Below are positions 34,656-64,000 of a DNA stretch of 64,000 bases, piece by piece; position 1 is the stretch's first letter; every line of letters begins with the position of its first letter. The position numbers and the translations under genes were made by a program. The notes below the pieces were generated by a model. That model saw only the letters and a program-made list of their open reading frames with translations, did not search any database and was not told where the DNA came from. The stretch is from Nesterenkonia aurantiaca (GTDB lineage Bacteria; Actinomycetota; Actinomycetes; Actinomycetales; Micrococcaceae), in NCBI RefSeq assembly GCF_004364585.1, contig NZ_SOAN01000004.1:62001-126000 (forward strand). Direction: 5' to 3'.

Positions 34656-37547
34656 GTGCGATGGATAGACCTTCACCCCAGTGCCAACCCGTCCGACCTC
34701 GGCGAACCCGACGCAACTGCAGACTCTGTCGGCACCGAGATGGTGGACGCCGCACTCGCGATGCATCGTTCTGCACTGGGGGCCGCCGGACGGGCGCACC
34801 TGGCCGCCGCCCGTGCCTGGATGACGACCGCCTCGTCGTCGGCTGCCGAGTCGTCGCCGGCCTTGACGCTGCTCAACCAGGCAAGTGCCGCGCATATGCG
34901 GCGGACCCGGTCCTACGACGAGTTGATCCAGATCTTGGAGCACCGCGCCGCGGCAGCGCCGCGAGGCGGTGCCGTTCCGACCGCCAGCAGCGTCGCCGAG
35001 ATCTCAGCGCCCGCTGAATTGGGACAGGAGTTCCTCCGATCTCCCGTTCACGCAGTGGAGGACGCGCTTGAGGCGGCGGTGACGCTCCCCGTCCCGGAGC
35101 CCGGCGCGTCTCGTCCTCGGCTGTCCTTGCGTGTAGGACTGATCGCGGGTCCGCGACTGGGCGCAGGACTGTTTGGGCTGGCGCAGATCATCCACATAGA
35201 CGCTGAGAACTGGATGGACCTTCACGGAGACCTCGACCTGCTGCTCATCGGCTCGGACACCTCTGTATCCCATGAACTGCTCATCGACTCGATCATTCCG
35301 CACTACAAGGAACGTTCCGTGCCCACTGCGTTCTTCTCCGCCGTCGGCAAGGACGAGGCCGAGGAAGCCACCGGCATCGTAGAGAGCTGCGACGCGGTGT
35401 TCGCGGTGGACCACGAAGTCGCGGAGACATACCGGGAACTGGGCCGGTCGGGTCTGAGCGTGACCATGGTTCAACTCCCCGTGAGCCCCCTGCTGCACAC
35501 TCCCCTCGGGACCCGACCTGCGGGCACGGATCTGCTCGCGTTCATGGGGTTGGACCCATCGTCGACACCGGCCAAGATCCACGCCGCCCAGTCGGTCTCC
35601 CCCTTGTTCGACGGCGCCCTTGCGTCCGGCCGCGCTGTGGCGCTGTTTCGGCCCGCCGAGGAGGACGGACTGCGAGCTTCTCAGTGGGCTGTGCCAGCGG
35701 AGTACGCTCCCTGGACGCTGTCCCGGCGCGAGGTTCCGGCCCTGGAGGGCCTCACCGAGACCGCGATGCTGCAGCGCAGCATGGACATCGGCCTCGCCGT
35801 GAACTCGGTGGCCAACTCGCAGACGTTGCTCGACAGCCAGATCTTGCAGCTGCAGGCGTGCGGGACCATGGTGCTCGCCACCTACAACCAAGGCGTCAAC
35901 TCCTATCATCCGAACGTGTATGTCGCCAATGCGGCGGAGGACGTGGCGAAGACCCTCCAGTACATGGACCTCGAGGAGCTTCGCCGTGTCCAGAGCGATG
36001 GCATCCGCCAGGTCTTCACGGCCCATCACGGGACGGATGTGCTCGGCACGATCGCACGGACGGTCGGTCTGCACGTGGCCGCTCCCACCGACCGGGTCCT
36101 CGCCGTCACCGAGGAGGTCACGGATGAGCTTCGCGAAGACATCGCACGCCAGACCCACCCCGCCGTCGCTCTGGTCACCTGGGCAGAGATCGGAGAATGG
36201 CAGGTCGGCAGCGACACTGATGCCGGGGACTTCGACATACTCCTGCCGGTGAGCGCCTCGCGTCGATACTCCCCGATCTACACGGCCGATCATGTGGCCG
36301 CGTTCCGGTATCAGTCGGCACCGATCACCACCAAGCTCCAGGGAACTGCCGAAGAGACGGATCACCTCGCCCATTCGCGGACCTCCGAGGTCAGGAAGCT
36401 CTCGCTCACCGCCTGGTGGCGGCCGTCTGCGGCCGCCCTGGGCTCACCGCAGGAGCTGGAGGCGTCCAGATCTGGCCTGCCGGTCTACGCCATCGACCAT
36501 TTCGGGCATCGTTCCCCCGCCACCCGGCGCGTGGTCGACCCCGCTGTGGGGTCGGACTTCGAGCGCACGGCACGGGAGTTCAAGACCACGGCTGAGGCTG
36601 AAGGGCTTGAGCTCGCCGTCGTCGTCCCGATCTATAACAACGGCGACCACCTGCGGCACAAGGCCTTCGCCTCGCTGCGCCGCTCCGAGATGTTCGACCG
36701 GATGCACGTTCTGCTGATCAACGACGGTTCCACGGATGCGTCCACGTTCGACACCATCGAGGAGCTGGCGCATTCTTATCCGAACGTCTCCGCATTCCAT
36801 CACGCTTCCGGCGGGTCTGGTTCAGCATCGAGACCGCGCAACACCGGCCTGGCGCTCAGCTTCACCGAGTTCGTGACGTATCTGGACCCCGACGACGAAG
36901 AGCTCGACGACGGCTACCTGGTGCTCCTCGACGAGCTCCGCAGTAGGCCCGAGGCCGATTTCTCGCTGGGCACGATGGCTGTCTGGACGCATCGCTACAG
37001 TGTCCATGACTACCACGCATGGTTCGCCGACGGGGTCGAGCATCGAGACGGGCTCGTGTGGCCTCACCGCGACACCCTGCGCACGCTGAACTTCAGACCA
37101 GCCTCCATCGAGGCCCTGGTCGCTCGCACGGATTGGCTCAAAGGGTTGGGACTCGTCCAGCCGGTGGGCGCGGTCGGGCAGGACTCGTACTTTTTCCAGC
37201 AGCTGATGTACCACGTCCGGGCCTACGTCCCGGTGCACCGACCGGTCTACACCTACTACGGCGCCGTGGATACCTCGATCGTGAACGTGGTCTCTCCGAA
37301 ATACTTCCGGAAGTACCTGATCCTGGAACTCGACCGGGCCCAGTGGCTGCGTGAGGTGGGCCTCCTCGAGGACTACATGGAACAACGCTTCGAGAACTTC
37401 TTCGTCTCCTGGTATCTCGCGAAGTTCGCGAAGGTCCGCCCTGAGGATCGCGAGGAGGCCGCGGGCGTGCTCCGAGAGATCGCACGCGCCTATGGCCCTT
37501 ACCACTGGAACGACTCTAGGGCGCGAGCCTTCTTCAGAAGGTACTAG
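34656..37547 (+). CDS. Two-module glycosyltransferase (CgeB/GT-B-like N-terminal part plus GT2 domain), paralogue 1
   Basis: A 963-residue protein. The first 150 residues are Ala-rich and variable. Residues about 155-475 resemble the spore-protein-CgeB/GT-B type, with LQLQACGTMVLATYNQGVNSY near 398. A spacer follows, then from about 650 a GT2 (GT-A fold) domain with VVVPIYNNGDHLRHKAFASL, INDGSTD and the metal-binding YLDPDDEE near 742. The end is helical with EKYF-type patterns common in polymer-forming GT2 proteins. No membrane segment or signal peptide is seen, so it should act on the cytoplasmic face. It shares long identical blocks with the gene at 39589. Context suggests a role in a uronic-acid-containing wall polymer; donor and acceptor sugars are unknown. 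Confidence 0.85.
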   Translation: MRWIDLHPSANPSDLGEPDATADSVGTEMVDAALAMHRSALGAAGRAHLAAARAWMTTASSSAAESSPALTLLNQASAAHMRRTRSYDELIQILEHRAAAAPRGGAVPTASSVAEISAPAELGQEFLRSPVHAVEDALEAAVTLPVPEPGASRPRLSLRVGLIAGPRLGAGLFGLAQIIHIDAENWMDLHGDLDLLLIGSDTSVSHELLIDSIIPHYKERSVPTAFFSAVGKDEAEEATGIVESCDAVFAVDHEVAETYRELGRSGLSVTMVQLPVSPLLHTPLGTRPAGTDLLAFMGLDPSSTPAKIHAAQSVSPLFDGALASGRAVALFRPAEEDGLRASQWAVPAEYAPWTLSRREVPALEGLTETAMLQRSMDIGLAVNSVANSQTLLDSQILQLQACGTMVLATYNQGVNSYHPNVYVANAAEDVAKTLQYMDLEELRRVQSDGIRQVFTAHHGTDVLGTIARTVGLHVAAPTDRVLAVTEEVTDELREDIARQTHPAVALVTWAEIGEWQVGSDTDAGDFDILLPVSASRRYSPIYTADHVAAFRYQSAPITTKLQGTAEETDHLAHSRTSEVRKLSLTAWWRPSAAALGSPQELEASRSGLPVYAIDHFGHRSPATRRVVDPAVGSDFERTAREFKTTAEAEGLELAVVVPIYNNGDHLRHKAFASLRRSEMFDRMHVLLINDGSTDASTFDTIEELAHSYPNVSAFHHASGGSGSASRPRNTGLALSFTEFVTYLDPDDEELDDGYLVLLDELRSRPEADFSLGTMAVWTHRYSVHDYHAWFADGVEHRDGLVWPHRDTLRTLNFRPASIEALVARTDWLKGLGLVQPVGAVGQDSYFFQQLMYHVRAYVPVHRPVYTYYGAVDTSIVNVVSPKYFRKYLILELDRAQWLREVGLLEDYMEQRFENFFVSWYLAKFAKVRPEDREEAAGVLREIARAYGPYHWNDSRARAFFRRY

Positions 37548-37583
37548 GCGCTCTCCCCAAGCTGGAGGCGCGAGGCCACACAG

Positions 37584-37620
37584 CCAGCCCGGGGAGCGCA
37601 GGCCCGGGATCTCGGGCTGG
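37584..37620 (+). terminator. Possible hairpin after the first large glycosyltransferase
   Basis: An 8-bp stem CCAGCCCG / CGGGCTGG (37584-37591 and 37613-37620) with a GC-rich loop, 37 bp after the stop. No U-run. The rest of this 289-bp gap holds only the candidate wecC promoter. Confidence 0.35.
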
Positions 37621-37785
37621 CATCGCCCGCTCCGACCCGGGTGGGCGGGGCGGGCCTCAAACCGAGTTCGCGTGAACTGGTTCTGGGCCGCGGCAGCTCG
37701 GTGCCGCTACTCCGGATTGATCAAATCCACGTTCACCGTTCGCGGCGCGCGGGATGCGGGTCACGCTCATATCTAGCTGCTGGGA

Positions 37786-37791
37786 TAGACT
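37786..37791 (+). promoter_or_regulatory. Candidate -10 element TAGACT for the UDP-ManNAc dehydrogenase gene
   Basis: TAGACT lies 45 bp before the TTG start at 37837, giving a leader of about 38 bases. No clear -35 box was seen. Confidence 0.35.
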
Positions 37792-37836
37792 CGCCAGCTG
37801 TTAGACACCTAGGACCGCCGAAGAAAGTGAATCGCC

Positions 37837-39072
37837 TTGATCAGCAAATCCTCCACCGTCGGTGTGATCGGACTTGGCTACATCGGTCTACCCACCGCAG
37901 CCATCCTCGCCGATCACGGTGTCACCACCATCGGGATGGACGTCTCCGAGCGCAACGTCACCGCTGTCAACAACGGCGAGGTGCCGTTCGTGGAACCAGG
38001 GCTGCGCGAAGTCCTGGAACGGGCAGTCAGCAGCGGCGCACTGACCGCGAGCACGCAGACACCCGTGGCGGACGCCTACATCGTCGCCGTGCCCACTCCC
38101 TTCACCGATACCCACTCGGCTGACCTGAGCTACATCGAAGCTGCCGCGGATGGAATTGCCGCCAAGCTCTCCGGCGGCGAACTGATCATCCTGGAATCGA
38201 CGTCCCCTCCGGGGGCCACCGAACACATGGCCGCACGGATCCTTGCCGCACGCCCCGACCTGGGCCCGGCGGACATCATGGTCGCGCACTGCCCCGAGCG
38301 TGTGCTGCCGGGCAAGATCATGGAGGAGATGATCTCCAATGACCGGATCATCGGTGGTCTGACACCCGCCGCCGCGGAGGCGGCGAAGGACCTCTACTCA
38401 GCCTTCTGCAAAGGCGAGTTCCTGCTCACCGATGCGCGCACCGCAGAGATGGCGAAGCTCACGGAGAACAGCTTCCGTGACGTCAACATCGCATTCGCCA
38501 ATGAGCTCTCGGTGATCAGCCACAAACTCGGTATCGACGTGTGGGAGCTCATCGAGCTCGCTAACCACCACCCGCGGGTCAACATCCTTCAGCCAGGACC
38601 CGGCGTGGGCGGGCACTGCATCGCGGTGGACCCGTGGTTCATCGTCGACGCCGCCCCGGAGCAGGCCAATCTGATCCGGACCGCCCGCGAGACCAACGAC
38701 GCGAAACCTGAGTGGGTCCTGGGCCGCATCGAACAGGCGCTCGAAGCCTCCGGTGAGGCGCCCACTGTGGCGCTGCTGGGCCTGGCGTTCAAGGCGAATA
38801 TCGATGACCTGAGAGAATCGCCATCGCTGCACATCGCGGAGAAGCTGGCGCAGCGGGCCCCCGATGCGAAGATCCTCGCGGTGGAGCCGCACATCCAGAA
38901 GCTGCCCGCTCCCTTGGAACAGTTTGGCAACGTCGCGCTGACCGAACTGGACGAGGCCCTGGAGCGCGCAGATGTGCTGGTGCTGCTGGTCGACCACGAC
39001 GTGTTCAAGTCCTTGCCGAAGTCCCGGCTGGGCTCCGCGGCGGTCATCGACACTCGCGGCATCTGGCGCTGA
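37837..39072 (+). CDS. wecC: UDP-N-acetyl-D-mannosamine dehydrogenase
   Basis: A 411-residue nucleotide-sugar dehydrogenase that oxidises UDP-ManNAc to UDP-ManNAcA with NAD. The Rossmann motif VGVIGLGYIGLP is at residues 8-19. The catalytic cysteine is Cys261 in GPGVGGHCIAVDPWFI, whose DPWF ending is typical of the WecC branch and not of UDP-glucose dehydrogenases. The C-terminal domain has LGLAFKANIDDLRESPS. The start is TTG at 37837, with AGAAAGTG upstream. WecB at 61264-62430 supplies its substrate although it is 22 kb away. ManNAcA is a known component of Micrococcus teichuronic acid. Confidence 0.93.
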   Translation: MISKSSTVGVIGLGYIGLPTAAILADHGVTTIGMDVSERNVTAVNNGEVPFVEPGLREVLERAVSSGALTASTQTPVADAYIVAVPTPFTDTHSADLSYIEAAADGIAAKLSGGELIILESTSPPGATEHMAARILAARPDLGPADIMVAHCPERVLPGKIMEEMISNDRIIGGLTPAAAEAAKDLYSAFCKGEFLLTDARTAEMAKLTENSFRDVNIAFANELSVISHKLGIDVWELIELANHHPRVNILQPGPGVGGHCIAVDPWFIVDAAPEQANLIRTARETNDAKPEWVLGRIEQALEASGEAPTVALLGLAFKANIDDLRESPSLHIAEKLAQRAPDAKILAVEPHIQKLPAPLEQFGNVALTELDEALERADVLVLLVDHDVFKSLPKSRLGSAAVIDTRGIWR

Positions 39073-39107
39073 GGCGTCCACAGGGGCGGTCCCAAACCGA
39101 CCGCAGT

Positions 39108-39113
39108 TACACT
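39108..39113 (+). promoter_or_regulatory. Candidate -10 element TACACT for the 39179-42294 pair
   Basis: TACACT lies 65 bp before the ATG at 39179 in the 106-bp gap after wecC. A GCGGT/ACCGC inverted repeat overlaps the -35 region. Weak evidence. Confidence 0.3.
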
Positions 39114-39178
39114 GTGCCCAATGATCCCTTGGGCTAACCCCGAAGCAGCAGAACTCTATTGAGCCAACGAGGAGCCTG

Positions 39179-39592
39179 ATGACCACCGACTCAGCCACAA
39201 GACGTTCTGGCGTCACCGAAGATGCGCCTGAGGGCGCTGTCAGCGGAGACCAGCTGTCCCCCGAGGACGTCGTGGTCGCCTTGTTGCGTCAGCAGGAGAC
39301 CCTCCTCGCCGAGCTGAGCTGGGCGTACGAGCAGCTCGAACGGTCCCAGGAGTCGGAGATCGCCGCCCTCAGGTCCCGCGTCTCCTCACTGGAGTACCGG
39401 GTGGCCAAGAAGCTGAAGGGACGAAGCGCTCCCGAGCGGGACCTCAGCCCCGCCCCACCGTCGTTCCTGACGGATACCCGCAAGCGCCTGGATTTCACGC
39501 TTCGGCACCCGCGCCGGGCCGTCCGAGCAGCAGAGCGCCGTCTGCGGAGGAGGAACGAGGCCCCTGCCGCACAAGAGGGCCTCACGAAGTGA
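39179..39592 (+). CDS. Small coiled-coil protein coupled to the second large glycosyltransferase
   Basis: A 137-residue protein without a family I recognise. Residues about 25-75 are Leu/Glu/Gln-rich with heptad spacing (ETLLAELSWAYEQLERSQES, then AALRSRVSSLEYRVAKKL), a probable coiled coil. The C-terminal 45 residues are strongly basic (TLRHPRRAVRAAERRLRRRN). No membrane segment or signal peptide. The ATG follows GAGGAG. Its stop overlaps the GTG of the next gene (GTGA), so it is made in step with that glycosyltransferase and may anchor or assemble it. Function otherwise unknown. Confidence 0.75.
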   Translation: MTTDSATRRSGVTEDAPEGAVSGDQLSPEDVVVALLRQQETLLAELSWAYEQLERSQESEIAALRSRVSSLEYRVAKKLKGRSAPERDLSPAPPSFLTDTRKRLDFTLRHPRRAVRAAERRLRRRNEAPAAQEGLTK

Positions 39593-42294
39593 ACCGCCCC
39601 CGACACCGACAGCCGTTCGACAGGCATTCCCAGCTCGCCGTCGGCCGGGCCCGCGTAGAGCGTCTGCTCAGCACGAGTGATCCGCTGAGCGCGCTGCGAG
39701 ACCCCAGCCTGCTCGCGGCTCTGGGCGTGGCGGCTTCTTCGCCGTTCCGCGGTGGAGTGATGCACCCCGACACCCAGCCTGCGCTCTCCGGAGCCATGGA
39801 TGCTCTGCCGGCGCTGGAGAGCGGTATTGCCAAACCGGCCGTTCCCGCGACGGTGGGTGTATTCGGCGATGACACGCTGCTGCATGCCTTCGAGAACAGC
39901 GCCCTCATGAGGTCCATCGACCCGCTCGACTGGGAAGCAGGGGTCCGGGATTCCCAGATCATCTTGCTCGGCCCCCAGAGCACCCGGTCACGCCGGGGCC
40001 GCGGCAGGGTCATAGAGTATGCCCGTGAACACTCCCTGCCGTTGATCTACGTAGACCTCGGCACCGCCGCACCGACTGCAGAGCAGCTGAGGCTCGCGGC
40101 CCGCTGTGATCGAATCTTCGCCGTCTCGGAGGAGAATGCGGGGGTCTTCCAGAACGCGCGATCTGTTCCCCCGACCTCGGCAGACGACGATGCCCGGATC
40201 TCCTCGCCGCAGCTCATCCCCGTAGAAGTCGTTGCATGCCCGGTCAACCCCCTCCATCGGTCCCCACTGGGCTCCCGCCAGGTCATTCCTCCTCTGGTCA
40301 CCTATCTGGGTGATCTCGGCACCCAGCTTCCGACCGAGGTCGGCGAAAGTCTAAAATGGACCCTCGATGGAGTCTTGGCGGCCGGCGCTGATCTGCTGAT
40401 CAGCCCCGAAGCGCGTGTCGAGGCGGCGCTGACCACCCAGTATTGGCCGCACGTCCAGGATTGGGTGTCGAACCGCAGGTCCGAGCTCGACCGACTCACG
40501 GACATCGGAGTGGTGGCACACACGATCAGCGGCTCCCAGACGGCGTTCTCCCCTCGAGTGATCGAGCTGCAGGCTTCCGGGTCCTTCGTGCTCTCAACAT
40601 ATAACCAGGGCGTCAACTCCTACTATCCGCAGGTGCACGTGGCGAACTCCACGCTCGACGTTGCCTCGATGCTGGAAGCGTTGCAGCGGACTGACCTGCG
40701 TCGAGCCCAGAACGACGGGGTTCGGCAGGTCTTCAGCGAGAACCACGCGACAGATGTTCTGCGTCAGATCCTCCATTCCGTGGGACTGTCTGATCCAGCT
40801 TCCGCGCCGCGGGTTCTTGCCGTCACGGATGACGAGGATGACGTGCTCAGAGCAGAGCTCTCGGTCCAGACTGTGGGCGGTGTCGACGTCGTCACCTGGC
40901 GCGAAGCCTCCATGCGCTCTGCGGGTTACGACGTTCTGCTCCCGGTCTCCTCTGCGCATCACTACGCATCGACGTACGTTGCTGACCATCTCGCCGCGAT
41001 GGCCTACCAGTCTGCTCAGGTGGTTGCCAAGTTGGACTCGGGTGCCGAGGATCAGGGCCACCGGCACGTCGAGGGGTCCCTTGGCGATCTCGCTCTGACG
41101 GCTTGGTGGCGTCCCGACCTCGGCGAAGAGATGAGTGCCGAGAAGTTGGCTGGAAGCCTCGCCGAAGCTCGCGTCTACATCGCCGAGGAATCAAGCCATC
41201 GCACTCGACGAGCCGACTCGCCGCGCCGCACGTCCATGGAGCTCGCCCAGGGAGATGACTTCGATGAGGTTTCTCGCCAGGTGGCGCAGACGTCACGCGA
41301 CGCCGACCTCAGGCTCTCGGTCGTCGTGCCGATCTACAACAATGGACCCCACCTGCGACATAAGGCCTTCGCCTCGCTGCTGAGGTCGAGCGCGTTTTCT
41401 GACATGCATGTGCTGCTGGTCAGCGACGGTTCCACGGACCCGTTGACGCTAGACACGATCCAGGACCTCACCGAGGACCATCCCAACGTCTCTGCCTTCC
41501 ATCACGCTCGAGGCGGCTCTGGTTCGGCATCGCGTCCCCGCAACACGGGGCTCGATCTCGCCCAGACGGAGTTCGTGACCTATCTCGATCCTGACAACGA
41601 GGCCATAGAAGACGGGTACGCAGAGCTCTACGCAGCAATCCAGGAGCATCAAGACGTGGACTTCGCGCTGGGCAACATGTCCCAGTGGGCTAAGCGCAGG
41701 TCCATGCAGCCCTACGCCGAGGTGCTTCAGACCGTGTTCGCCGATGATATCGACGGGGCAGGAAACATCACGGTCCCTCCGCGGGCGCTCGAGGCTCTGC
41801 GCTTCCGGCCCATGGGCATCCAGACGGTGGTGGCGCGCACCGAATGGTTGCAGTCGCTGAACCTCACCCAGCCGGTCGGGGCCGTCGGCCAAGATTCGTA
41901 TTTCTTCCAACAGATGCTGCACTACGCAAAATCGATCAGGGCGATCGACGTCGGCGTGCACACGTATTACATGGCCGTGAGCAACTCGACGGTCAACACC
42001 TTGAATCCGCACTACTTCAGGAAGTACCTGCCGCTGGACCGGGCGCGCGCGAAATGGCTGGATGAAGTCGGTCTTCTGGACGCTTATAAAACCGATCGTC
42101 TTGAGCCGTTCCTGGTCTCCTGGTTATTGCCAAAGTTGAGGCGCGTGAAGCCCGAAGAATGGCAAGAGGCGGCGGAGAATCTCGCCGAACTGCTAGATTG
42201 CTATGGGGAGTATGAATGGACACAACCCACAGCTATCTCATTCTGGAAAGATCTCAACGCCGCCAGATCACCACGTGTGCAGTCCTGCGGATGA
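39589..42294 (+). CDS. Two-module glycosyltransferase, paralogue 2
   Basis: A 901-residue protein with the same order of parts as the gene at 34656 but a shorter N-terminus. The CgeB/GT-B-like part has LQASGSFVLSTYNQGVNSYYP near residue 326. The GT2 domain from about 574 has SVVVPIYNNGPHLRHKAFAS, VSDGSTD and YLDPDNEA near 665. Blocks such as GGSGSASRPRNTGL are identical in both paralogues, so they arose by duplication, but flanking parts have diverged and they may add different sugars. The GTG start overlaps the stop of the coiled-coil gene. Base use in its last third is slightly richer in A/T than nearby housekeeping genes. Specificity is unknown. Confidence 0.85.
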   Translation: MNRPRHRQPFDRHSQLAVGRARVERLLSTSDPLSALRDPSLLAALGVAASSPFRGGVMHPDTQPALSGAMDALPALESGIAKPAVPATVGVFGDDTLLHAFENSALMRSIDPLDWEAGVRDSQIILLGPQSTRSRRGRGRVIEYAREHSLPLIYVDLGTAAPTAEQLRLAARCDRIFAVSEENAGVFQNARSVPPTSADDDARISSPQLIPVEVVACPVNPLHRSPLGSRQVIPPLVTYLGDLGTQLPTEVGESLKWTLDGVLAAGADLLISPEARVEAALTTQYWPHVQDWVSNRRSELDRLTDIGVVAHTISGSQTAFSPRVIELQASGSFVLSTYNQGVNSYYPQVHVANSTLDVASMLEALQRTDLRRAQNDGVRQVFSENHATDVLRQILHSVGLSDPASAPRVLAVTDDEDDVLRAELSVQTVGGVDVVTWREASMRSAGYDVLLPVSSAHHYASTYVADHLAAMAYQSAQVVAKLDSGAEDQGHRHVEGSLGDLALTAWWRPDLGEEMSAEKLAGSLAEARVYIAEESSHRTRRADSPRRTSMELAQGDDFDEVSRQVAQTSRDADLRLSVVVPIYNNGPHLRHKAFASLLRSSAFSDMHVLLVSDGSTDPLTLDTIQDLTEDHPNVSAFHHARGGSGSASRPRNTGLDLAQTEFVTYLDPDNEAIEDGYAELYAAIQEHQDVDFALGNMSQWAKRRSMQPYAEVLQTVFADDIDGAGNITVPPRALEALRFRPMGIQTVVARTEWLQSLNLTQPVGAVGQDSYFFQQMLHYAKSIRAIDVGVHTYYMAVSNSTVNTLNPHYFRKYLPLDRARAKWLDEVGLLDAYKTDRLEPFLVSWLLPKLRRVKPEEWQEAAENLAELLDCYGEYEWTQPTAISFWKDLNAARSPRVQSCG

Positions 42295-42396: not shown

Positions 42397-43797
42397 ATGC
42401 CGCAGATCCCGAAGGCACTGCACGACCGCATTCCTGGCATAGGGTGGCGCGATCGGAAGATCGCCTTCCTTCAGACGCGAACGAATCAGCTCGACCGTGC
42501 CCAGCACTCGCTGACCATGAAGGTTCGGAAGCTGAAGACCGCCTTGGATCAGGAGCGTGCTGCACACGCCGCAGCCGATGCGGCCCACATATCGGAGCGT
42601 GCGGCGGCCGATGCCGCCTACACCTCCGAGCGTGCCGCAGCCGATGCCGCCTACACCTCCGAGCGTGCCGCAGCCCATGCCGCGCACAAGGCGGAACGGG
42701 ACACCCTCGAGGCGGCACACGACGCAGAGCGTGCCGCCCTCACGGAGGAGAACGACGGCCTGAAATCGGAGATCGAGATTCTGCAGGCCAAGTATGAGGC
42801 CGCAGTCGCTGAGCACCAGCGATTCACCCTGCCGTCCTTCAAGGCAAAGCTCGTGAATTACCGAGATGCCGCCGACATCACCAGTGACAACAAGTGGCAC
42901 GCATCCGGTCCGCTTGCTCAGGTGAGCTACAAGCTGCGCAGCTACGCCCTCGCAGACAGCCTCGGCATAGCTACACCTGAGATCTACAGGGTGTGGCACT
43001 CCCTGGAAGACATCGATTTCAGCGACCTCACCGTTCAGCGCTTCGTCCTCAAAGCTGACCGGGGGCACAGCGGTATGGCAGTCATTCCTCTGACGCGCAC
43101 CGGGACCGGTTGGCAGACACTCACCGGGAAGGAGCAGCTCACCGAAAGCCGCCCCTCAGCACGGATGCTGACCCGCCTCGAGCAAGGAGGAGGACCCTAT
43201 TTCGCTGAAGAGTTCCTCGAGAGCGCGAGCAATGCCACGATCCCCGAAGACATCAAGGTCTACACCGCGTACGGTCAGGTGCTTCATGTGCTCGTGATGA
43301 GCACCGAGGGCGTGCAGGTGATGAATCGAAAGACCTTCAAGCGGAAGTACTTCGGCCCGGACGGTGGTGATCTCGGTCCCATTCTGCCCGGGGCAAACTA
43401 CGGACCAGACATCCCTGTGCCGGTGGGCTGGAACGGGCTGCTCGAAGCGGCAGAGAAGATGTCCATCGCCGCAGGCATACCCTTTGTGAGGGTCGACCTC
43501 TATGCGACCTCACGGGGTCCGGTGCTGGGCGAACTCACTCCGGCTCCTGGGGGGAAGCAGACATATTCCCTGGACCACGATGCCCAGCTCGGCGCCGCGT
43601 GGAACAACGCGGAGGTGCGTCTACACCGCGACATCGCGCGGGGACGCCCTCCGGGCACGATCTTCGGAGCGCAGCCCTACACCTGGTGGTACCCAGAATC
43701 ACCCCTGGAGTCGCACCCCTCGGCGTGGCCGCGCCGGCGTGCCGACGCCCGGCGCTGGTTCACTCCGCCCCCGTCTCGGCAGGGCGAGCAGGACTGA
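42397..43797 (+). CDS. TupA-like ATP-grasp protein with long N-terminal coiled coil
   Basis: A 466-residue protein. Residues about 20-142 form a long Ala/Glu/Arg-rich coiled coil with 11-residue repeats (SERAAADAAYT type). Residues about 150-440 match the TupA-like ATP-grasp family: FVLKADRGHSGM, EDIKVYTAYGQVLHVLVMS and FVRVDLYATSRGPVLGELTP with the metal-binding acidic residues. TupA of alkaliphilic Bacillus is needed for teichuronopeptide, an acidic wall polymer of glutamate and glucuronate. The ATG at 42397 has GGAAGGAA upstream; the earlier GTG lacks one. It converges with the acyltransferase gene (32-bp gap). The ligase role on a ManNAcA polymer is inferred; no signal peptide is present, so it is cytoplasmic. 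Confidence 0.82.
   Translation: MPQIPKALHDRIPGIGWRDRKIAFLQTRTNQLDRAQHSLTMKVRKLKTALDQERAAHAAADAAHISERAAADAAYTSERAAADAAYTSERAAAHAAHKAERDTLEAAHDAERAALTEENDGLKSEIEILQAKYEAAVAEHQRFTLPSFKAKLVNYRDAADITSDNKWHASGPLAQVSYKLRSYALADSLGIATPEIYRVWHSLEDIDFSDLTVQRFVLKADRGHSGMAVIPLTRTGTGWQTLTGKEQLTESRPSARMLTRLEQGGGPYFAEEFLESASNATIPEDIKVYTAYGQVLHVLVMSTEGVQVMNRKTFKRKYFGPDGGDLGPILPGANYGPDIPVPVGWNGLLEAAEKMSIAAGIPFVRVDLYATSRGPVLGELTPAPGGKQTYSLDHDAQLGAAWNNAEVRLHRDIARGRPPGTIFGAQPYTWWYPESPLESHPSAWPRRRADARRWFTPPPSRQGEQD
42595..42726 (+). repeat. 33-bp coding repeats in the coiled coil of the TupA-like gene
   Basis: Four in-frame 33-bp units begin at 42595, 42628, 42661 and 42694. The first two are nearly identical in DNA, the third diverges in its second half and the fourth is degenerate. 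Each encodes 11 residues, which keeps hendecad coiled-coil register. Confidence 0.85.
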
Positions 43798-43829: not shown

Positions 43830-46001
43830 TCAGCCCTGCGCCGAGAGCGCCGGTTCCATCCGGTCGCTGATCTCAGGGATCATGGACCGCACGAAGTCCT
43901 CTGCCAGGTGGCTGTTGTCTGAGTACGTGATGGCACCGCCGATCGTTGCGTAGCAGGTGTCCTCCAGGCAGACCAGGTCCTCTGTGGGCACGAAGTGGTA
44001 GTTCTCCGCATCCTCGAAGACCTCGGCTGATCGTGTCAGCCAACGATCCCCCACCTGGGTGTCCTCTCGGGTCTCATTGCACGCGGAGGGATCATCCTCG
44101 TTCAGGGCAACACATTCCGGCAGGGTCTCTTCCGAGTCCTCATCGTTGCTCATGCGGGGGGACTCGCCGAAGACCACCACTTCCTTCTCGGCCTCGAGCC
44201 AGGTCACGATCGGCTCGTACATCGCCAGCGCGGAATCATCGAGATCGTAGTCACTCTCGTCCAGACCAAGGTCGCGGCTCGGTCCGCCGAATTCGCCGTG
44301 CATCTGGCTGGCGGCCACCACCACCGTGTGGACGCTCTCGTCCTCGGAGACCTGCTCCATGATCTCTGCATTGGCCTGCAGACACTCGCTGGAGTCGTCG
44401 CCGACCTCGCCGCCACGCGGCGTGCAGGCAGATCTGGTGAGCACCAGGAGCTGCTTGTCCTGCTCTTGGGCGATCTCATCGAGAGCCGGGAGCCACATGG
44501 TGGCGTGGGAGTCCCCGAAGACCGCAATCGTGCCGTCGGCGTCGGACTCCTCGGCACCGAGCCAGCACTCCTGGACAGCAGGGTCTTCGTTGTCGGCCTG
44601 GCATCCCGGGAATGCCCCCTCCTGGTACTGCTCCGCCACCACCGCAGGCGAGGGCCACAGACCAAGCTCACCTGCAAAGGCGTCGCCGCATTCCCCGATG
44701 TTGGCTAACGCCCGGTAGCCGTAGCAGGGGTGGTCCGCCGTGATGGTGGAGTCTTCGGAGCTGGTCTGCATGGTCGAGACTGCCGCGATGCCGGAGACGA
44801 TGACCAGCGCCATGCCAGCACCGGCCGCGACCATCGTCCGCCAGGTGGGCAGCAGGATCTTGGCCCGGCGGATCGGGGTCTCGAAGAAGCGGGTGCTCAG
44901 CGCAGAGAGCGCGATGATCCCCAGGATCAGCAGGACCTTCACATACCAGAACCTTGCGGCCTCGCTGATGTAAGGAGAGAAGATCACCACTGGCCAGTGC
45001 CAGAGGTAGATGGCGTAGGACCAGTCACCGATGGCAGTCGCGGGGCGCAGCGAGAGCCACCAGTGGATGCCGGTCACAGGTTCGCGTCCGCCGCAGGACA
45101 GCACCAGCACCGTGCCGAGGGTCGGCACCAGTGCCGTCCAGCCGGGGAACGGGGTGGCATCGGTATACATGATCGCCGAGCCCAAGATCATCAGGAACCC
45201 GACCCAGCCCAGCACATTTCCCCACTTGCCGGTGAACTGCCGAGAGCCGAGGACGAGCGCCGCGATCGCTCCCAGGGTGAACTCCCAGATCCGAGTGGGG
45301 GTCACGAAGTACGCCTGCGCAGGCGCGGCGGCGGTGTAGTAGATGGAGAAGATCAGCGAGAAGGCGCCGAGCAGTCCTACCACCCAGAGGAACGCTACCC
45401 GGATCTGAGCATGCCCCAACGCCGGGGCCCCCGACCGTCGTTGCCGGAATGCCAGGAACATCAGTGTGAGCGCCAACAGGACGGGCCACAGGACGTAGAA
45501 CTGCTCCTCCACCGACAGCGTCCAGAAATGCTGGACTGCGGTCGCCCGTTCGTCGGCCTTCGAGTACTCCACCGCGTCTGCCGCGAGGACCCAGTTCTGC
45601 ACGTAGAGCGTGGACGCGATGATCTGGCGCAGCGTGGCCTGCCAGGCGGTGCTGGGCAGGATCAGCACGGCCGAGATTGCGGTCAGCAGCAGCACGAGCA
45701 GGCTCAGCGGCAGCAGCCGACGGATCCTGCGCGCCCAGAACTGACCGAGCCGGACTCCCCCGGTCTTCACCGCCTCCTTGAACAGATGCGCGGTGATCAG
45801 GTACCCGGAGATCACGAAGAACACATCCACGCCCACGTAGCCGCCGGTGAGCCGGTCGGGCCAGAAGTGGTAGAGCAGCACGACCAGAACCGCCAAGGCT
45901 CGGAGCCCCTGGATCTCAGGCTGGAAGTGCGCCGGGGTCTTGACCTGCGCGGGCAGCGGGCGCCCCGATGGGGTGGCCGTTGTCGAGGGTATCGAAGTCA
46001 T
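43830..46001 (-). CDS. OatA-like membrane O-acyltransferase (acyltransferase-3 plus SGNH domain)
   Basis: A 723-residue protein. The N-terminal 400 residues form an acyltransferase-3 domain with about ten membrane segments, starting IQGLRALAVLVVLLYHFWP with the conserved His45, and GYVGVDVFFVISGYLI. The C-terminal 270 residues form an extracytoplasmic SGNH hydrolase-like domain with FGDSHATMWLPAL and, near the end, the DNSHL block that provides the Asp-His pair. Such proteins move acetyl groups out of the cell and attach them to peptidoglycan or wall polymers. Neighbouring polymer genes suggest a wall polymer acceptor. Divergent from ftsY, with a 202-bp gap between. Confidence 0.92.
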   Translation of the reverse strand: MTSIPSTTATPSGRPLPAQVKTPAHFQPEIQGLRALAVLVVLLYHFWPDRLTGGYVGVDVFFVISGYLITAHLFKEAVKTGGVRLGQFWARRIRRLLPLSLLVLLLTAISAVLILPSTAWQATLRQIIASTLYVQNWVLAADAVEYSKADERATAVQHFWTLSVEEQFYVLWPVLLALTLMFLAFRQRRSGAPALGHAQIRVAFLWVVGLLGAFSLIFSIYYTAAAPAQAYFVTPTRIWEFTLGAIAALVLGSRQFTGKWGNVLGWVGFLMILGSAIMYTDATPFPGWTALVPTLGTVLVLSCGGREPVTGIHWWLSLRPATAIGDWSYAIYLWHWPVVIFSPYISEAARFWYVKVLLILGIIALSALSTRFFETPIRRAKILLPTWRTMVAAGAGMALVIVSGIAAVSTMQTSSEDSTITADHPCYGYRALANIGECGDAFAGELGLWPSPAVVAEQYQEGAFPGCQADNEDPAVQECWLGAEESDADGTIAVFGDSHATMWLPALDEIAQEQDKQLLVLTRSACTPRGGEVGDDSSECLQANAEIMEQVSEDESVHTVVVAASQMHGEFGGPSRDLGLDESDYDLDDSALAMYEPIVTWLEAEKEVVVFGESPRMSNDEDSEETLPECVALNEDDPSACNETREDTQVGDRWLTRSAEVFEDAENYHFVPTEDLVCLEDTCYATIGGAITYSDNSHLAEDFVRSMIPEISDRMEPALSAQG

Positions 46002-55864: not shown

Positions 55865-55887
55865 TGTGCGGGATCAGCGGCGGCGGC

Positions 55888-57120: not shown

Positions 57121-57250
57121 GGAGCCACTCCTGTTTGTTCTGCCATCGGTCATCCTCGTTGCTCAACGCAACGAACCCCGGGACCATTCCCTCCCCCGGC
57201 TTCGCGATCTCATGGCAGGATAGGGGCACTTCATCACGAGAGGCGTTTCG

Positions 57251-57643
57251 ATGGAACCCACTGCCGGCAGCCTGGACGTCTTCTTGAGCGCGATCACGCC
57301 GAAGGTTCGGCAGCGTGACGCTCGGACCATGGTGGAGCTGATGCGGCGGGTCACGGCCGAGGAGCCGCAGCTCTGGGGCAGCATCATCGGCTTCGGGGCC
57401 TACCACTACCGCTATGCCTCGGGCCGCGAGGGCGACGCCCCGGCGGCGGGCTTCGCCGCCCGCTGGCAGGCCACCACGATCTATCTGCCCGACGGGGTCG
57501 AGGCGCACGCCGAGGCGCTGGACCGGCTCGGTCCGCACAGCACCGGCGTCGGATGTCTCTACATCCCACGCTTGGATCAGGTGGATCTCGCGGTGCTTGA
57601 GGAGATCATCGCCGGCTCCTACCGCAGAGTCACGGCGTGGTGA
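57251..57643 (+). CDS. DUF1801 (YdhG-like) protein
   Basis: A 130-residue protein of the DUF1801 fold. It has the family's ARTMVELMRRVTAEEPQLWG, the GFGAYHYRYASGREGD motif and the GPHSTGVGCLYIPRLDQVD block. Biochemical function is not established. ATG at 57251 with GAGAGGCG upstream. Its 3' end overlaps the 3' end of convergent smc by 14 bp. Single-gene transcript by context. Confidence 0.88.
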   Translation: MEPTAGSLDVFLSAITPKVRQRDARTMVELMRRVTAEEPQLWGSIIGFGAYHYRYASGREGDAPAAGFAARWQATTIYLPDGVEAHAEALDRLGPHSTGVGCLYIPRLDQVDLAVLEEIIAGSYRRVTAW

Positions 57644-60600: not shown

Positions 60601-61253
60601 ATGCGCTGGGCGCGGCGGGCTACTCGGGCCTGGCGGCCCAGCGGCGCGAGCTGCCGGGAGATCTCACCGATCAGGTCCTCGAGGCGGGAGAGGTTGGTCT
60701 GCATCGATTCGAGCTTGCGCACGCTGCGTTCCCGGCGGCGCCGGTGCTTCAGAACTCCGGCTGCCTCTTCGACGAAGCCGCGCCGCTGCTCCGGGGTGGC
60801 CTGGAGGATCTGATCCAGCTGCCCCTGACCGACGATCACATGCATCTCCCGGCCCAGCCCGGAGTCCGAGAGCAGCTCCTGGATGTCGAGCAGCCGACAC
60901 TTGGCACCGTTGATCGTGTAGTCGCTGCCCCCGGTGCGGAACATCGTCCGGGAGATCGTGACCTCGGAGTATTCGATCGGCAGCGCACCGTCGGAGTTGT
61001 CGATGGTCAGCGACACCGAGGCTCGGCCCAGCGGCTGGCGCTCGGTGGTGCCGGCGAAGATGACGTCCTCCATGGTGCCGCCGCGCAGTGACTTCGCGCC
61101 CTGCTCGCCCATGACCCAGGCCAGGGCGTCGACCACGTTGGACTTGCCCGACCCGTTGGGACCCACCACGGCGGTGACCCCGGGTTCGAACTCGAAGGTC
61201 GTGGCCGAGGCGAAGGACTTGAATCCGCGGACCGTCAGGGTCTTCAGGTGCAC
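57630..61253 (-). CDS. smc: SMC, chromosome condensation ATPase
   Basis: A 1207-residue condensin core. The Walker A motif VGPNGSGKSNVVDAL is at about 30-44, QGQLDQIL near 145 is the Q-loop area, two long Ala/Glu/Arg coiled coils flank a hinge at about 500-640, and the C-terminal head has LSGGERSLTAVALLVAIF and PFYVMDEVEAALDD. Start is GTG at 61253, without a strong Shine-Dalgarno. It is 10 bp downstream of wecB on the same strand, so the two are probably cotranscribed. ScpA/ScpB are not in the window. Confidence 0.96.
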   Translation of the reverse strand: MHLKTLTVRGFKSFASATTFEFEPGVTAVVGPNGSGKSNVVDALAWVMGEQGAKSLRGGTMEDVIFAGTTERQPLGRASVSLTIDNSDGALPIEYSEVTISRTMFRTGGSDYTINGAKCRLLDIQELLSDSGLGREMHVIVGQGQLDQILQATPEQRRGFVEEAAGVLKHRRRRERSVRKLESMQTNLSRLEDLIGEISRQLAPLGRQARVARRAQRIQHDLRDSLSRIIADDLVRAATALHESSQGEQQDRDAAEQLRASLAAQDAEIAQLEKQAADQRAHVEKLLAGHHRLERVQERLRSVASLAQERARSLRASAVVQQSGRDPEALRAQAQSVAEAAAELDAEVTANRERLERCSAARAQAEEALKVEETRLTEQLRAVADRRAGLATLRGRVDTAQGRIDAAQARRRRAREQGDAARAAQKRARSEFAELEQRLAGVETGEADLDADYEAAHQRLETLRTGYDEQLAAQQRLRTQINEHRARLSGLSAARTPRDGAAALLRDRAEDIEAPLAHRLRITRGWETAIAACLGSLDAALIVKDAETAAEALGWLAAEDAGRAHLIHPVLTGTDTRSEQVSAGLPDAELPALPEGAAWAHQVVSVAEDQQIPVHAALAGVVLCADQPQAAGLLQRSEVRAAVTSEGIILRAGERIGGTVLENSDVAITAEIAELTEAVEQRELELEALAAASASDESEVNAAELRVEATLQALHANDAELHAMTEQLARLHAEMARSAERIETSDQEAHAAQSSAAEAQQQCQEAQSRLEAAQSEDIEEEPSSAERDRLSAAAAARRREEVDARLELRAAEEQHKQMLERAAALRRSASAEETRREQAQKVAEARSSRAQAAETIQGEAETAFQALNEVLRRSETTRTVAETAGAATQERTTTLRAARRNDAAELETLTAALHRAELTRTELRLSLEAAEARGLEELSLTAEYLIEHYGPDQLVPHAETPETDERTGASPELERGVPFDRSEQEKRLTRARRDLKALGKVNPLALEEHSALEERHTYLQEQLADLKRSRQDLLEIIADVDATVEKVFTEAWLDTKMQFERVFARLFPGGEGRLELTNPEDMLNTGIEVQARPPGKRIRRLSLLSGGERSLTAVALLVAIFKARPSPFYVMDEVEAALDDTNLSRLLVIFEELRESSQLIIITHQKRTMEIADALYGVSMRQDGSTRVVSQRLGAAQEISGAELTTP

Positions 61254-61263
61254 GGGGGTGGAC

Positions 61264-62430
61264 TCACACTCCGCCGGACTCGGCGGGGCTGGGCTGGAAG
61301 TCTTCCATCCGTTCCCCGAGCCCGAACATCGCAGCGATCGCCGCCACGGTGCGCTGCGCGGCGTGGCCGTCGCCGTAGGGGTTCACCGCATTGGCCATCG
61401 CGGAATAGGCGTCCGGGTCGTCGAAGAGCGCGGCGACCTCTTCGACCACTCGTTCCTCGGCGGTGCCGATGAGCCGGACGGTGCCGGCGTCCACGGCCTC
61501 GGGGCGTTCGGTGTTGTCCCGCATCACCAGCACCGGCTTGCCCAGGGAGGGGGCCTCCTCCTGCACGCCGCCGGAGTCGGTGAGCACCACGGTGGAGAGA
61601 TTCATCAGCCGGGTGAACTCGCCGTAGGGCAGCGGCTCGGTGACGATCACGTTCTCGTGCCCAGCCAGGGCGGGAAGGATCGCTTCGCGGACCACCGGGT
61701 TGCGGTGCGCCGGAAGCACGATCAGCTTCTCGGGGTACCGGTTGGCCAGGCGGGCCAGCGCGCGGCCCACGCCCTCCATGGCGGAGCCCTGGTTCTCGCG
61801 TCGGTGGGTGGTGACCAGCAGGACGTCCCGGCCGGAGGCCGCCGCGTCTTCAAGCTGGGCATCGGCGAACGGCACATGCTTGCTCGCGACCTCGAGCAGC
61901 GCGTCGATCACGGTGTTGCCGGTGACCACTATGTCCTGCGCCGGCAGCGCCTCGCGCAGCAGGTTGTCCCGGGACTGCCCGGTGGGAGCCAGGTGCAGCG
62001 CGGTGATCTGGCTGGTCATCTTGCGGTTCGCCTCTTCGGGGAACGGTGAGTAGAGGTTGAACGAGCGCAGCCCGGCCTCGGCGTGGATCACCGGGATCCC
62101 GGAGTAGAACGCGGCCATCGCGCCGGCGGTGGTGGTGGTCGTGTCACCCTGGACGACGACGGCGTCGGGCTTGTTCCGCGCGAAGATCGCGTCCAGTCCG
62201 GTGACTGTGCGGGTCAGCACCCCGTTGAGCGTCTGCCGGGGCTGGATGATGTTCAGGTCATGGTCCGGCACGATGCCGAAGAGCTCGTTGACCTGGTCCA
62301 GCATCTCGCGGTGCTGGCCGGTCACGGTGACCTCGCACTCGAAGAGCTCGCTGGCCTGCAGCGCCTTGACGATCGGTGCCATCTTGATGGCCTCGGGACG
62401 TGTCCCGTAGATGGGCATGATTCGCTTCAT
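61264..62430 (-). CDS. wecB: UDP-N-acetylglucosamine 2-epimerase (non-hydrolysing)
   Basis: A 388-residue GT-B fold epimerase that converts UDP-GlcNAc to UDP-ManNAc. Conserved blocks are YGTRPEAIKMAPIVKAL at the N-terminus, VTGQHREML, VQGDTTTT, AEAGLRSFNLYSPFPEE with the active-site Glu and His region, and TDSGGVQEEAPSLGKPVLVMR. The ATG at 62430 has AGAGGAA upstream. It supplies substrate for the UDP-ManNAc dehydrogenase at 37837-39072. It is transcribed towards smc with a 10-bp gap and is divergent from an ATP-grasp gene. Confidence 0.95.
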   Translation of the reverse strand: MKRIMPIYGTRPEAIKMAPIVKALQASELFECEVTVTGQHREMLDQVNELFGIVPDHDLNIIQPRQTLNGVLTRTVTGLDAIFARNKPDAVVVQGDTTTTTAGAMAAFYSGIPVIHAEAGLRSFNLYSPFPEEANRKMTSQITALHLAPTGQSRDNLLREALPAQDIVVTGNTVIDALLEVASKHVPFADAQLEDAAASGRDVLLVTTHRRENQGSAMEGVGRALARLANRYPEKLIVLPAHRNPVVREAILPALAGHENVIVTEPLPYGEFTRLMNLSTVVLTDSGGVQEEAPSLGKPVLVMRDNTERPEAVDAGTVRLIGTAEERVVEEVAALFDDPDAYSAMANAVNPYGDGHAAQRTVAAIAAMFGLGERMEDFQPSPAESGGV

Positions 62431-62581
62431 AGCGTGGATTCCTCTTTCGCTGGTGTCGCCAGGTGTGACGAATTCTGCGGCTGGTGGCGTGCAGCGGGGA
62501 CGTGCCCGCTCCACACCGACGAAAACAGCCTATCCGCAGGACGGGCGAAGCAGAGGGAGACTCCCCCGTCCCGACGCGGCC

Positions 62582-62633: not shown

Positions 62634-63761
62634 ATGGCAAGTGCAACGGACTCGACCTCGTCGGCGGATCAGGCTAGGCGCTCCGAGCGGCGACGACGAG
62701 CCGAGAGATTCCGCGACCCGAGCGATCCCAGCCGCCGCCTCATCGCCCGCTTCGACTCGATTGACTGGAGCGCGCCGGAAGAGTACTCAACCTTCAAGTC
62801 CAACAACATCCTCTTGCTCGATGCGGCCAAGAAGGGCAAGGCTGGCATCCTTGAGGTCCATAAAGGCTACCGCACGTTCACCCGGAACGGCCGGGTCATC
62901 GGCGGGTTCCACCAGCTCACCACCTCGCTGACGAGCGATCTGGCGAAGACGGTCATGCGATCACGCGCGCTGGTCAAGGACTGCCTTGAATCGGCGAGCG
63001 TTCCCACCCCGGTCGGGCGTGGGTTCAGTGTGCGAGACCTGCAGGGAGCCCGAGACTACATGGCCGGACTCGGTGGCTCCGTCACGGTCAAACCCCAAGC
63101 CGGCAGACACGGCGACGGGATCTCCACAGATGTTTCGAGCCACCAGGAACTGGCGCATGCCTGGGAGTCAGCCCAGCCGCAGGAGAAGTCTCCACTGTGG
63201 CGCGCCAAGAACCTCCTCGTCGAGCAGTTCGTCCCGGGAGCCGATCTTCGGGTCTATGTCGTCGGTGAGGCGGTGGTCGGCGCACTGGCACGGCTTCCGC
63301 TCTTCATCGTCGGCGACGGACGCTCAACCGTGGCGACTCTCGCCCGAGATGCAGTTGCGGCCCGCGGTCGAAACGCCTTTCTAGCCGAGTCTCCACCGGA
63401 CATCAGCGCCGACGCGCTGGCTGACCTGGGGCTCGATCCCCTGGTGACTCTTCCAGTCGGGGAAGTGCGTGATATCAGTGGGACGTCGAATCCCAAGGCG
63501 GGAGGCGTCACCCTCGACGTCACGGCGATGCTCAGCGCCCCGCTGCGTCGGCTGGCGGTCGATGCCCTGTGGGCGGTTCCCGGACTGCCTGCGGGAGGGG
63601 TTGATCTTCGGGTGAGTGACCTGAGCGAAACCGCCGAGGCGGTCGTCACCGATGTCACCGACAGTGCGGACATGTCTCTGCATCGATACCCCACGTTCGG
63701 CACCTGGCGCTCTCCAGCGCCCGCTGTCATCAGTCGGATGCTGGCGGACTCCGCTGCGTGA
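62634..63761 (+). CDS. Cyanophycin-synthetase-like ATP-grasp ligase
   Basis: A 375-residue protein. After a charged N-terminus it resembles the ATP-grasp part of cyanophycin synthetase and GshAB: SRALVKDCLESASVPTP near 110, TVKPQAGRHGDGIS at 151-164, LLVEQFVPGADLRVYVVG near 194, and ARLPLFIVGDGRSTVATL near 219. The Mur-ligase half of cyanophycin synthetase is absent, so it is not a full cyanophycin enzyme. GAGGAG lies 10 bases before the ATG. Its stop overlaps the start of an acyltransferase gene (TGATG). Beside wecB and distant from the TupA-like gene, it may attach amino acids to a surface polymer; substrates are unknown. Confidence 0.8.
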   Translation: MASATDSTSSADQARRSERRRRAERFRDPSDPSRRLIARFDSIDWSAPEEYSTFKSNNILLLDAAKKGKAGILEVHKGYRTFTRNGRVIGGFHQLTTSLTSDLAKTVMRSRALVKDCLESASVPTPVGRGFSVRDLQGARDYMAGLGGSVTVKPQAGRHGDGISTDVSSHQELAHAWESAQPQEKSPLWRAKNLLVEQFVPGADLRVYVVGEAVVGALARLPLFIVGDGRSTVATLARDAVAARGRNAFLAESPPDISADALADLGLDPLVTLPVGEVRDISGTSNPKAGGVTLDVTAMLSAPLRRLAVDALWAVPGLPAGGVDLRVSDLSETAEAVVTDVTDSADMSLHRYPTFGTWRSPAPAVISRMLADSAA

Positions 63762-64000
63762 TGGGGACCGGCTTGCTCCGCTCGACTGAAGACTCCCCAC
63801 CTGCCCCCGCCCCCTGGAGCGCTCCGGAACGGCGCTACCGACCAGAGCTGCACGGACTGCGCGGCCTGGCGATCCTCGGGGTCGTCCTGTTCCACCTCTT
63901 CGGCGCCGGCCGGATCTCCGGCGGCATCGACATCTTCCTGGCAATCTCAGGGTTTCTGTTCACTTCGATGCTCCTCAGGGAGGCAGTCGAGAACCGAGGC
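63761..64000 (+). CDS. Acyltransferase-3 family protein, 5' part (cut by window end)
   Basis: The first 80 codons of a membrane O-acyltransferase. From the ATG at 63761 the frame reads a short Pro/Ala-rich tail, then RPELHGLRGLAILGVVLFHL and ISGGIDIFLAISGFLFTSML, the first two membrane segments and conserved histidine of acyltransferase-3 proteins. The start overlaps the ATP-grasp stop by one base, so the two are coupled. Whether a C-terminal SGNH domain follows cannot be seen. Confidence 0.85.
   Translation, partial: MGTGLLRSTEDSPPAPAPWSAPERRYRPELHGLRGLAILGVVLFHLFGAGRISGGIDIFLAISGFLFTSMLLREAVENRG

Follow-up and report, generated by a model that had tools for sequence, protein, structure and literature searches.

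The teichuronic acid of Micrococcus luteus is a wall polymer in which N-acetylmannosaminuronic acid (ManNAcA) alternates with glucose, built by two kinds of glycosyltransferase (PMC3005890). In the capsule of Campylobacter jejuni HS:2, glucuronic acid (GlcA) is amidated at its C6 carboxylate by the TupA-like domain of Cj1438 (PMC11800379); uridine diphosphate (UDP)-GlcA is no substrate, so amidation follows chain transfer, and it may be required before the next step (PMC11800397). ManNAcA itself bears amino acids on C6 in the capsules of Haemophilus influenzae type d (Ala, Ser or Thr) and Pasteurella multocida B (Gly) (PMC10627249), and the teichuronopeptide of Bacillus halodurans consists of poly-gamma-glutamate and polyglucuronate (PMC8153356). 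Teichuronic-acid-like polymers of Streptomyces (PMC13274773) serve as background only. Here, we compare with these systems a locus of Nesterenkonia aurantiaca, contained in a window of 64,000 nucleotides (the whole stretch of DNA analysed, G000:C4:62001-126000) from a genome of 2,948,026 bases on 25 contigs. The window encodes a TupA-like ATP-grasp protein beside the genes for a predicted ManNAcA polymer, and the main new point is that this TupA appears to be exchanged between species together with its glycosyltransferases.

The polymer genes lie in two modules. Module 1 (34656-46001) is bounded by ffh and ftsY and runs, in the order listed, from GT_A to an AT3-SGNH gene on the opposite strand. 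Module 2 starts after smc and extends from 61264 to about 70.1 kb, past the end of the window.

32951-34558, minus strand: ffh, left boundary of module 1
34656..37547, plus strand: GT_A, 963-aa glycosyltransferase with C-terminal GT2 domain (PF00535 42 bits); candidate polymer elongation enzyme
37837..39072, plus strand: UDP-N-acetyl-D-mannosamine (ManNAc) dehydrogenase, makes UDP-ManNAcA (NF008286 570 bits, cut-off 459)
39179..39592, plus strand: coiled-coil protein, 137 aa, basic C-terminus; stop overlaps the GT_B start
39589..42294, plus strand: GT_B, 901-aa glycosyltransferase, GT_A paralogue, C-terminal GT2 domain (PF00535 50 bits)
42397..43797, plus strand: TupA-like ATP-grasp protein with N-terminal coiled coil (PF14305 46.5 bits, cut-off 25); predicted uronate (ManNAcA) amidoligase
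43830..46001, minus strand: AT3-SGNH acyltransferase (PF01757 73 bits, PF19040 111 bits); predicted O-acyl transfer to polymer
46204-47403: ftsY, right boundary of module 1
61264..62514, minus strand: wecB, UDP-N-acetylglucosamine (GlcNAc) 2-epimerase (TIGR00236 461 bits, cut-off 210); longest open reading frame (ORF), probable start near 62430
62634..63761, plus strand: CphA-like ATP-grasp-fold protein with altered active site (TIGR02068 115 bits, profile positions 199-472 only)
63758..64000, plus strand: second AT3-SGNH acyltransferase, start only; overlaps the CphA-like stop and runs past the window

A sequence-only reading of this DNA had treated these genes as one system. The gene families it named are real, but a single 29-kb cluster had to be rejected because 46204-61253, about 15 kb, is filled by other genes (ftsY, GntR, amino-acid permease, glutamine-synthetase-like, peptidase C26, aldehyde dehydrogenase, SDR, Amt, MFS, DUF1801 and smc) that split the polymer genes into two separate modules. 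It had also overlooked the small coiled-coil gene, and of the two acyltransferases it counted, the one at 43830-46001 is complete, while the second only begins at 63758; past the window, within about 6 kb, come another gene of the AT3-SGNH type, the third, and then an ABC-2 permease with its ATPase.

That the locus makes a surface polymer containing ManNAcA is well supported, with both the UDP-ManNAcA pathway and polymer glycosyltransferases encoded, as expected of a ManNAcA teichuronic acid locus. The wecB and dehydrogenase assignments of the sequence-only reading hold at scores over the family cut-offs. Its two polymer-type glycosyltransferases are confirmed too and share about 40% identity; the N-terminal half of GT_A is weakly GT-B-like (PF13524, below cut-off). 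The permease and ATPase of module 2 resemble an export pair of the Wzm/Wzt or TagG/TagH type: the best NCBIfam models are Wzm, at 49 bits, and, at 168-180 bits, ATPases of teichoic-acid export, none of which reaches its cut-off, the ATPase being closest to teichoic-acid export and Wzt models. M. luteus belongs to the same family as Nesterenkonia, and its teichuronic acid would be the closest known polymer to that of the window, as judged by ManNAcA in a wall polymer and by two kinds of glycosyltransferase. The two systems differ in that the M. luteus subunits measure 52.5 and 54 kDa, against 901 and 963 aa here, and in the alternating glucose; no amidation is described in the excerpted text of PMC3005890.

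The role of TupA in this polymer is best approached through relatives. Thirty Nesterenkonia genomes were searched (G-numbers denote genomes, G000 being the host, and L-numbers fetched loci), and 14 were assigned to module 1; the other 16, comprising three with a GT_A/GT_B-type paralog in an unfetched setting (G008, G023, G029) and 13 with partial matches only, were not counted. Genes in fetched loci are the longest ORFs picked by GC bias, so their starts are rough and short genes may be missed, and the labels FolC, FtsY and IleS derive from Pfam matches, similarity to window genes or gene order. GT_A relatives occupy the same setting in 13 of the 14 genomes; the fetched contigs of G026 lack a GT_A, and the split GT_A of G009 was kept out of the tree for this protein. 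TupA follows GT_B in seven genomes (G000, G022, G011, G027, G003, G009, G026) and is missing there in seven (G015, G002, G019, G025, G017, G018, G020), two of which, G017 and G020, have a different TupA located in module 2.

Across these 14 genomes, the presence of TupA tracks the type of GT_B exactly. It requires one change on the GT_B tree versus four on a tree of FtsY, SMC, WecB and the dehydrogenase, and the latter count holds when G017, with rows filled to one third, is left out. As the dehydrogenase is itself a gene of module 1, a further tree was built from flank genes only (FtsY, SMC, WecB, FFH); it again needs four changes. On the flank tree, the sister of the window's genome is the TupA-minus G017 (support 98/95; G017 36% filled). 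TupA-plus genomes as a single clade are rejected, with p 8e-43 on the tree including the dehydrogenase and p 0.0002 on the flank-only tree, and the GT_B tree rejects a group of the window and the neighbours that it has on the scaffold tree (p 1e-66). For shared genomes, the TupA and GT_B trees agree in shape, except for the unsure long branch of G026. Pairs of close relatives make the pattern tangible: G011 (TupA-plus) and G015 (TupA-minus) share 96, 93, 98 and 90% identity in FtsY, SMC, WecB and dehydrogenase and 53, 42 and 47% in GT_A, coiled coil and GT_B. Likewise, the window and G017 share 98% identity in FtsY, while the window's GT_B is only 43% identical to that of G017 versus 64% to those of the TupA-plus G022 and G011. 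Since TupA follows GT_B type, with one change against four, the genes for GT_A, coiled coil, GT_B and TupA resemble a serotype-like cassette that species can exchange, and this exchange ties TupA to polymer assembly. While the trees establish the exchange itself, its chemical meaning for the polymer is what we infer below.

What TupA does is suggested by its residues, its fold and the C. jejuni precedent. The gene at 42397-43797 does encode a TupA-like ATP-grasp protein, as the sequence-only reading held: K219, E271, D285, K287, R365, D367, E379 and T381 are invariant in 6/6 sequences, and the conserved ATP-grasp columns are retained in 27-28 of 28 family members. A structure model (predicted local distance difference test score, pLDDT, 75.8) matches D-Ala-D-Ala ligase, PsnB, RimK and ArgX in Foldseek (E values between about 1e-7 and 2e-6; TM-scores, normalised to query length, of only about 0.3), indicating that TupA shares the fold of amide-forming ligases. 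Searches against solved structures gave no strong relative, either with the single protein (best E 0.17, not an ATP-grasp) or with a TupA profile (best E 0.0043, VanA), and PF08443, the RimK route to amino-acid ligases, has no match in the window's genome. As in the Cj1438 system, where the TupA-like ATP-grasp domain is fused to or beside a GT2 domain and serves an ABC (ATP-binding cassette)-dependent polymer, a polymer glycosyltransferase and a UDP-uronate dehydrogenase are encoded alongside the window's TupA. The systems differ in the uronic acid (GlcA there, ManNAcA here), in TupA being a separate protein with a coiled coil here, and in the amines, which in C. jejuni are serinol phosphate and ethanolamine phosphate with dedicated enzymes and a phosphatase, none of which was seen in the modules. 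By this analogy, the window's TupA likely forms an amide on the ManNAcA polymer.

We consider it reasonably probable that the two modules make and export a ManNAcA polymer of the teichuronic acid kind, that TupA amidates it and that GT_A, coiled coil, GT_B and TupA are exchanged as a cassette; the best reading is a switchable amidated ManNAcA polymer and no demonstrated teichuronopeptide. WecB and the dehydrogenase, as named by their family models, would supply UDP-ManNAcA, and GT_A, GT_B and the coiled-coil partner would build the chain. ATP-grasp ligases act via an acyl phosphate. In the manner of Cj1438C, TupA may activate the C6 carboxylate of a ManNAcA residue in this form and, during chain growth, couple it with an amine, for which a ready-made amino acid is the most likely candidate. 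The amidated end could then be the acceptor that this type of GT_B extends, as Cj1438C and the co-inheritance with GT_B suggest. AT3-SGNH proteins would O-acylate the polymer; for the one in module 1, a SucT-like model gives 235 bits, under its cut-off of 1275. The Wzm/Wzt-like ABC pair may export the chain, and the CphA-like protein of the exporter operon, maintained with an altered active site, would probably not be a second ordinary ligase. Exchange of the cassette between species inside conserved flanks would switch between amidated and plain polymer, much like capsule serotypes. All these biochemical steps are proposed, and attachment of the polymer to the wall is putative.

If true, TupA-type uronate amidation reaches beyond a Gram-negative capsule and includes a surface polymer of a Gram-positive bacterium, and a TupA gene is linked to a particular type of polymerase. 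Close relatives such as G011 and G015, one with TupA and one lacking it, or the window's genome and G017, then form natural pairs whose polymers should differ in amidation, which makes the role of TupA in wall polymers directly testable.

The gene neighbourhood of TupA adds support for this reading. Of the 14 window-type TupA places in the genus, 8 have a UDP-sugar dehydrogenase no more than 7 kb away, versus 0.17 expected at random, a count that carries no probability since the places are related and not independent. Window-type TupA was matched (E up to 1e-30) in 15 of 297 genomes of the order; of the 14 besides the window's, nine have a dehydrogenase relative within about 10 kb of TupA in the fetched stretches. 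Several observations weigh against the reading. The other five of those 14 genomes show no such relative there, one of these being a 4.6-kb contig. In the genus, the remaining PF14305 genes come that close at 2 of 40 places, with 0.40 expected, so a link to uronates is not general among TupA-like proteins. In G007, G010, G012 and G024, window-type TupA sits 60-67 kb from the nearest dehydrogenase, in loci of other make-up. Two changes each are needed on the tree of GT_A, which covers 12 genomes, and on that of the dehydrogenase, so the limits of the cassette are not sharp and the dehydrogenase may partly travel along. Amine-making enzymes and a phosphatase are missing from the Pfam scans of module proteins; their lack near TupA points to a ready-made amine, which we cannot name. 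Finally, the enzyme activities and the polymer structure of this strain are predictions.

In an alternative reading, the locus makes an ordinary teichuronic acid and TupA acts on something other than ManNAcA, for instance another uronate or a small molecule. In its favour, the genome encodes a second UDP-sugar dehydrogenase of untyped specificity (G000:C5:203567), its two exopolysaccharide (EPS)-type TupA genes lie 44-45 kb from the nearest UDP-sugar dehydrogenase, and ManNAcA as the acceptor is itself a prediction. We nevertheless regard this alternative as unlikely: it leaves the direct adjacency of TupA to polymer genes unexplained, together with its exact tracking of the module's GT_B type in 14 genomes, with the same tree shape bar one unsure long branch.

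The window's genome has four PF14305 genes. Besides the one in module 1, two belong to a polysaccharide cluster that precedes the window (L009:11309-19816, 0.2-8.7 kb upstream); they lie 5-7 kb upstream, and the cluster also contains sugar transferase, GT2, WecG-like and Wzz-like genes. In Ornithinimicrobium laminariae, three consecutive TupA-like genes occur near a UDP-sugar dehydrogenase and an ABC exporter (L015:7621-16049). The sequence-only reading had linked TupA to alkaliphily, and the host species is called alkaliphilic and Antarctic in a reference title within PMC8875376, the sole source for its alkaliphily here. TupA as an alkaliphile marker was discarded, as relatives of the genome's EPS-type TupA, used as the query, occur in 114 plasmid records (72 of them Klebsiella); the module-1 TupA is absent in 7 of 14 congeners.

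Does the polymer carry peptides? The sequence-only reading had proposed a teichuronopeptide-like system with amino acids or short peptides on a ManNAcA polymer. Its ManNAcA polymer and a likely amidation by TupA find support, and its peptide-bearing teichuronopeptide does not. Like the B. halodurans system, the locus combines a TupA family protein with a predicted acidic wall polymer in a host called alkaliphilic. It differs from that system of polyglucuronate and poly-gamma-glutamate in that the modules have no poly-glutamate gene, and where a glucuronic acid backbone would call for a UDP-Glc dehydrogenase, the module enzyme is of the ManNAc type. The locus fits the capsules of H. influenzae type d and P. 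multocida B, in which ManNAcA bears amino acids on C6, better, although these are Gram-negative capsules with GlcNAc as the backbone partner, and the excerpted text of PMC10627249 names no ligase. As chemistry, the 'new combination' claimed earlier is too strong in view of these capsules (PMC10627249). A limited literature text search found no report of amino acids on ManNAcA of a Gram-positive wall polymer, and a text search for teichuronic acid combined with ATP-grasp gave no match.

A true teichuronopeptide-like system, in which TupA and the CphA-like protein jointly equip the ManNAcA polymer with a short or poly-amino-acid chain, has some points in its favour. Both proteins are ATP-grasp relatives; in G017 and G020, TupA and both canonical (E-x-N) and divergent CphA-like genes adjoin a UDP-sugar dehydrogenase; and one CapA (PGA_cap) gene is present in the window's genome, on another contig (G000:C5:45665-46435). 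CapA matches occur in 23 of the 30 congeners searched, including the TupA-minus G015, G025, G017 and G018, and CapA is therefore no special partner of module 1. CapA or Pgs-type matches are missing among the scanned module proteins (PgsB was not searched genome-wide), and the sole Mur-ligase-fold match in these scans is a folC-like gene beyond ndk. Together with the state of the CphA-like active site and the retention of its gene in TupA-minus genomes described below, this makes a joint peptide-building system quite improbable. Better candidates for a teichuronopeptide-type locus may be L191:765-10507 and L198:1280-10247, in which TupA-like and UDP-sugar dehydrogenase genes stand beside multi-domain proteins that combine an enolase-superfamily domain with a Mur ligase and, in the case of L198, with an ATP-grasp domain too. 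In L124:82-4443, a single open frame two genes from smc joins enolase-type, CapA (PGA_cap) and ATP-grasp domains.

The CphA-like protein, counted by the sequence-only reading as a cyanophycin-synthetase-like ligase, does match the ATP-grasp fold and aligns to solved cyanophycin synthetases, but in the ATP-grasp domain only (profile positions 199-472): it scores 115 and 124 bits against cut-offs of 850 and 877 in cyanophycin synthetase models, lacks the Mur-ligase half and reads D-V-T in place of the canonical E-x-N. For its tree, 53 relatives were collected and 50 kept after three poor rows were dropped; nine of the 50 exceed 600 aa and align only in part. The window protein falls within a 24-member clade (SH-aLRT 98), of which a single member keeps the canonical K, D, E, N set, against 22 of 26 outside it. 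With at least one of the four canonical ATP/metal residues changed in 23 of 24 clade members, the earlier idea of two ATP-grasp ligases does not stand. Four syntenic orthologs read KDDT, TDDN, KDDH and RDDA at these positions, the ATP-site lysine being R or T in two of the three besides the window's. Genomes that lack the module-1 TupA, G015, G002 and G025 among them, retain the CphA-like gene, which speaks against a fixed partnership of two ligases. The activity of the CphA-like protein is thus doubtful, and from its residues it is probably not a second ordinary ligase.

It could instead work as a ligase whose metal ligands, D-x-T or D-x-D, are unusual. The window copy retains K203 and D374 (425-aa ORF numbering), a KDDD set recurs in seven relatives, and T at the asparagine position of E-x-N is common in the TupA family (27/28), so D-V-T alone is no proof of lost activity. 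The ratio of nonsynonymous to synonymous substitution rates (dN/dS) is 0.11-0.25 in five clade pairs (0.25 for the window versus G022), indicating that the protein is maintained. Variation among four syntenic orthologs is unlike a fixed active site, however, and we hold an active ligase to be possible but somewhat unlikely. A bolder proposal combines both halves of the locus: Nesterenkonia would switch the chemistry of a ManNAcA wall polymer by horizontal transfer of the GT_A, coiled coil, GT_B and TupA cassette, in which the amidoligase travels with the single type of polymerase able to extend its amidated product, and a family of altered ATP-grasp proteins near the exporter would act as a non-catalytic reader or gate for the modified chain. 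This we offer as speculation, and as a whole it is rather unlikely. Elsewhere in the genus, GT_A/GT_B-type genes alternate with CphA-like genes of canonical E-x-N (L106:7079-16719 in G009; L108:1-10416 in G003), and two loci (L119:8824-13872 and L121:8100-13541) have a row of UDP-sugar dehydrogenase, TupA, and divergent and canonical CphA-like genes, possibly an inactive/active pair.

Finally, we would like to place the locus among those of more distant relatives. Sequence-related contigs numbered three, two from Nesterenkonia and one from Ornithinimicrobium. GT_A/GT_B-type proteins (E up to 1e-60) were found in 23 of 149 family genomes, seven of these Nesterenkonia, and ten loci outside the genus, selected for such glycosyltransferases or for TupA, were fetched along with one paralog of the host's own. 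Six of the ten, from six genera (L175, L177, L178, L179, L180, L181), encode a ManNAc dehydrogenase (61-67% identity) and GT_B-like proteins, with WecB in four and an ABC exporter gene in four, and their fetched stretches hold no TupA or CphA-like match (0/6). Because these six loci do without TupA and CphA-like genes, the base polymer locus looks wider in distribution than the two ATP-grasp genes. Genus g20 has both states, with TupA at a like polymer locus in G117 and none at that of G048. In four other Nesterenkonia, the coiled-coil protein has counterparts at 41-49% identity; outside the genus, five loci have small genes in comparable positions that resemble it weakly (17-27%). The protein is perhaps a scaffold or chain-length ruler; the structure model of its neighbour GT_B (mean pLDDT 40.7) was too poor for use. 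Module 2 varies within the genus as well: in several congeners (L116:11567-18221, L131, L133, L138), it instead has two rhamnosyltransferase-like genes, a pectate-lyase-like gene and a pyruvyl transferase gene around the CphA-like gene.

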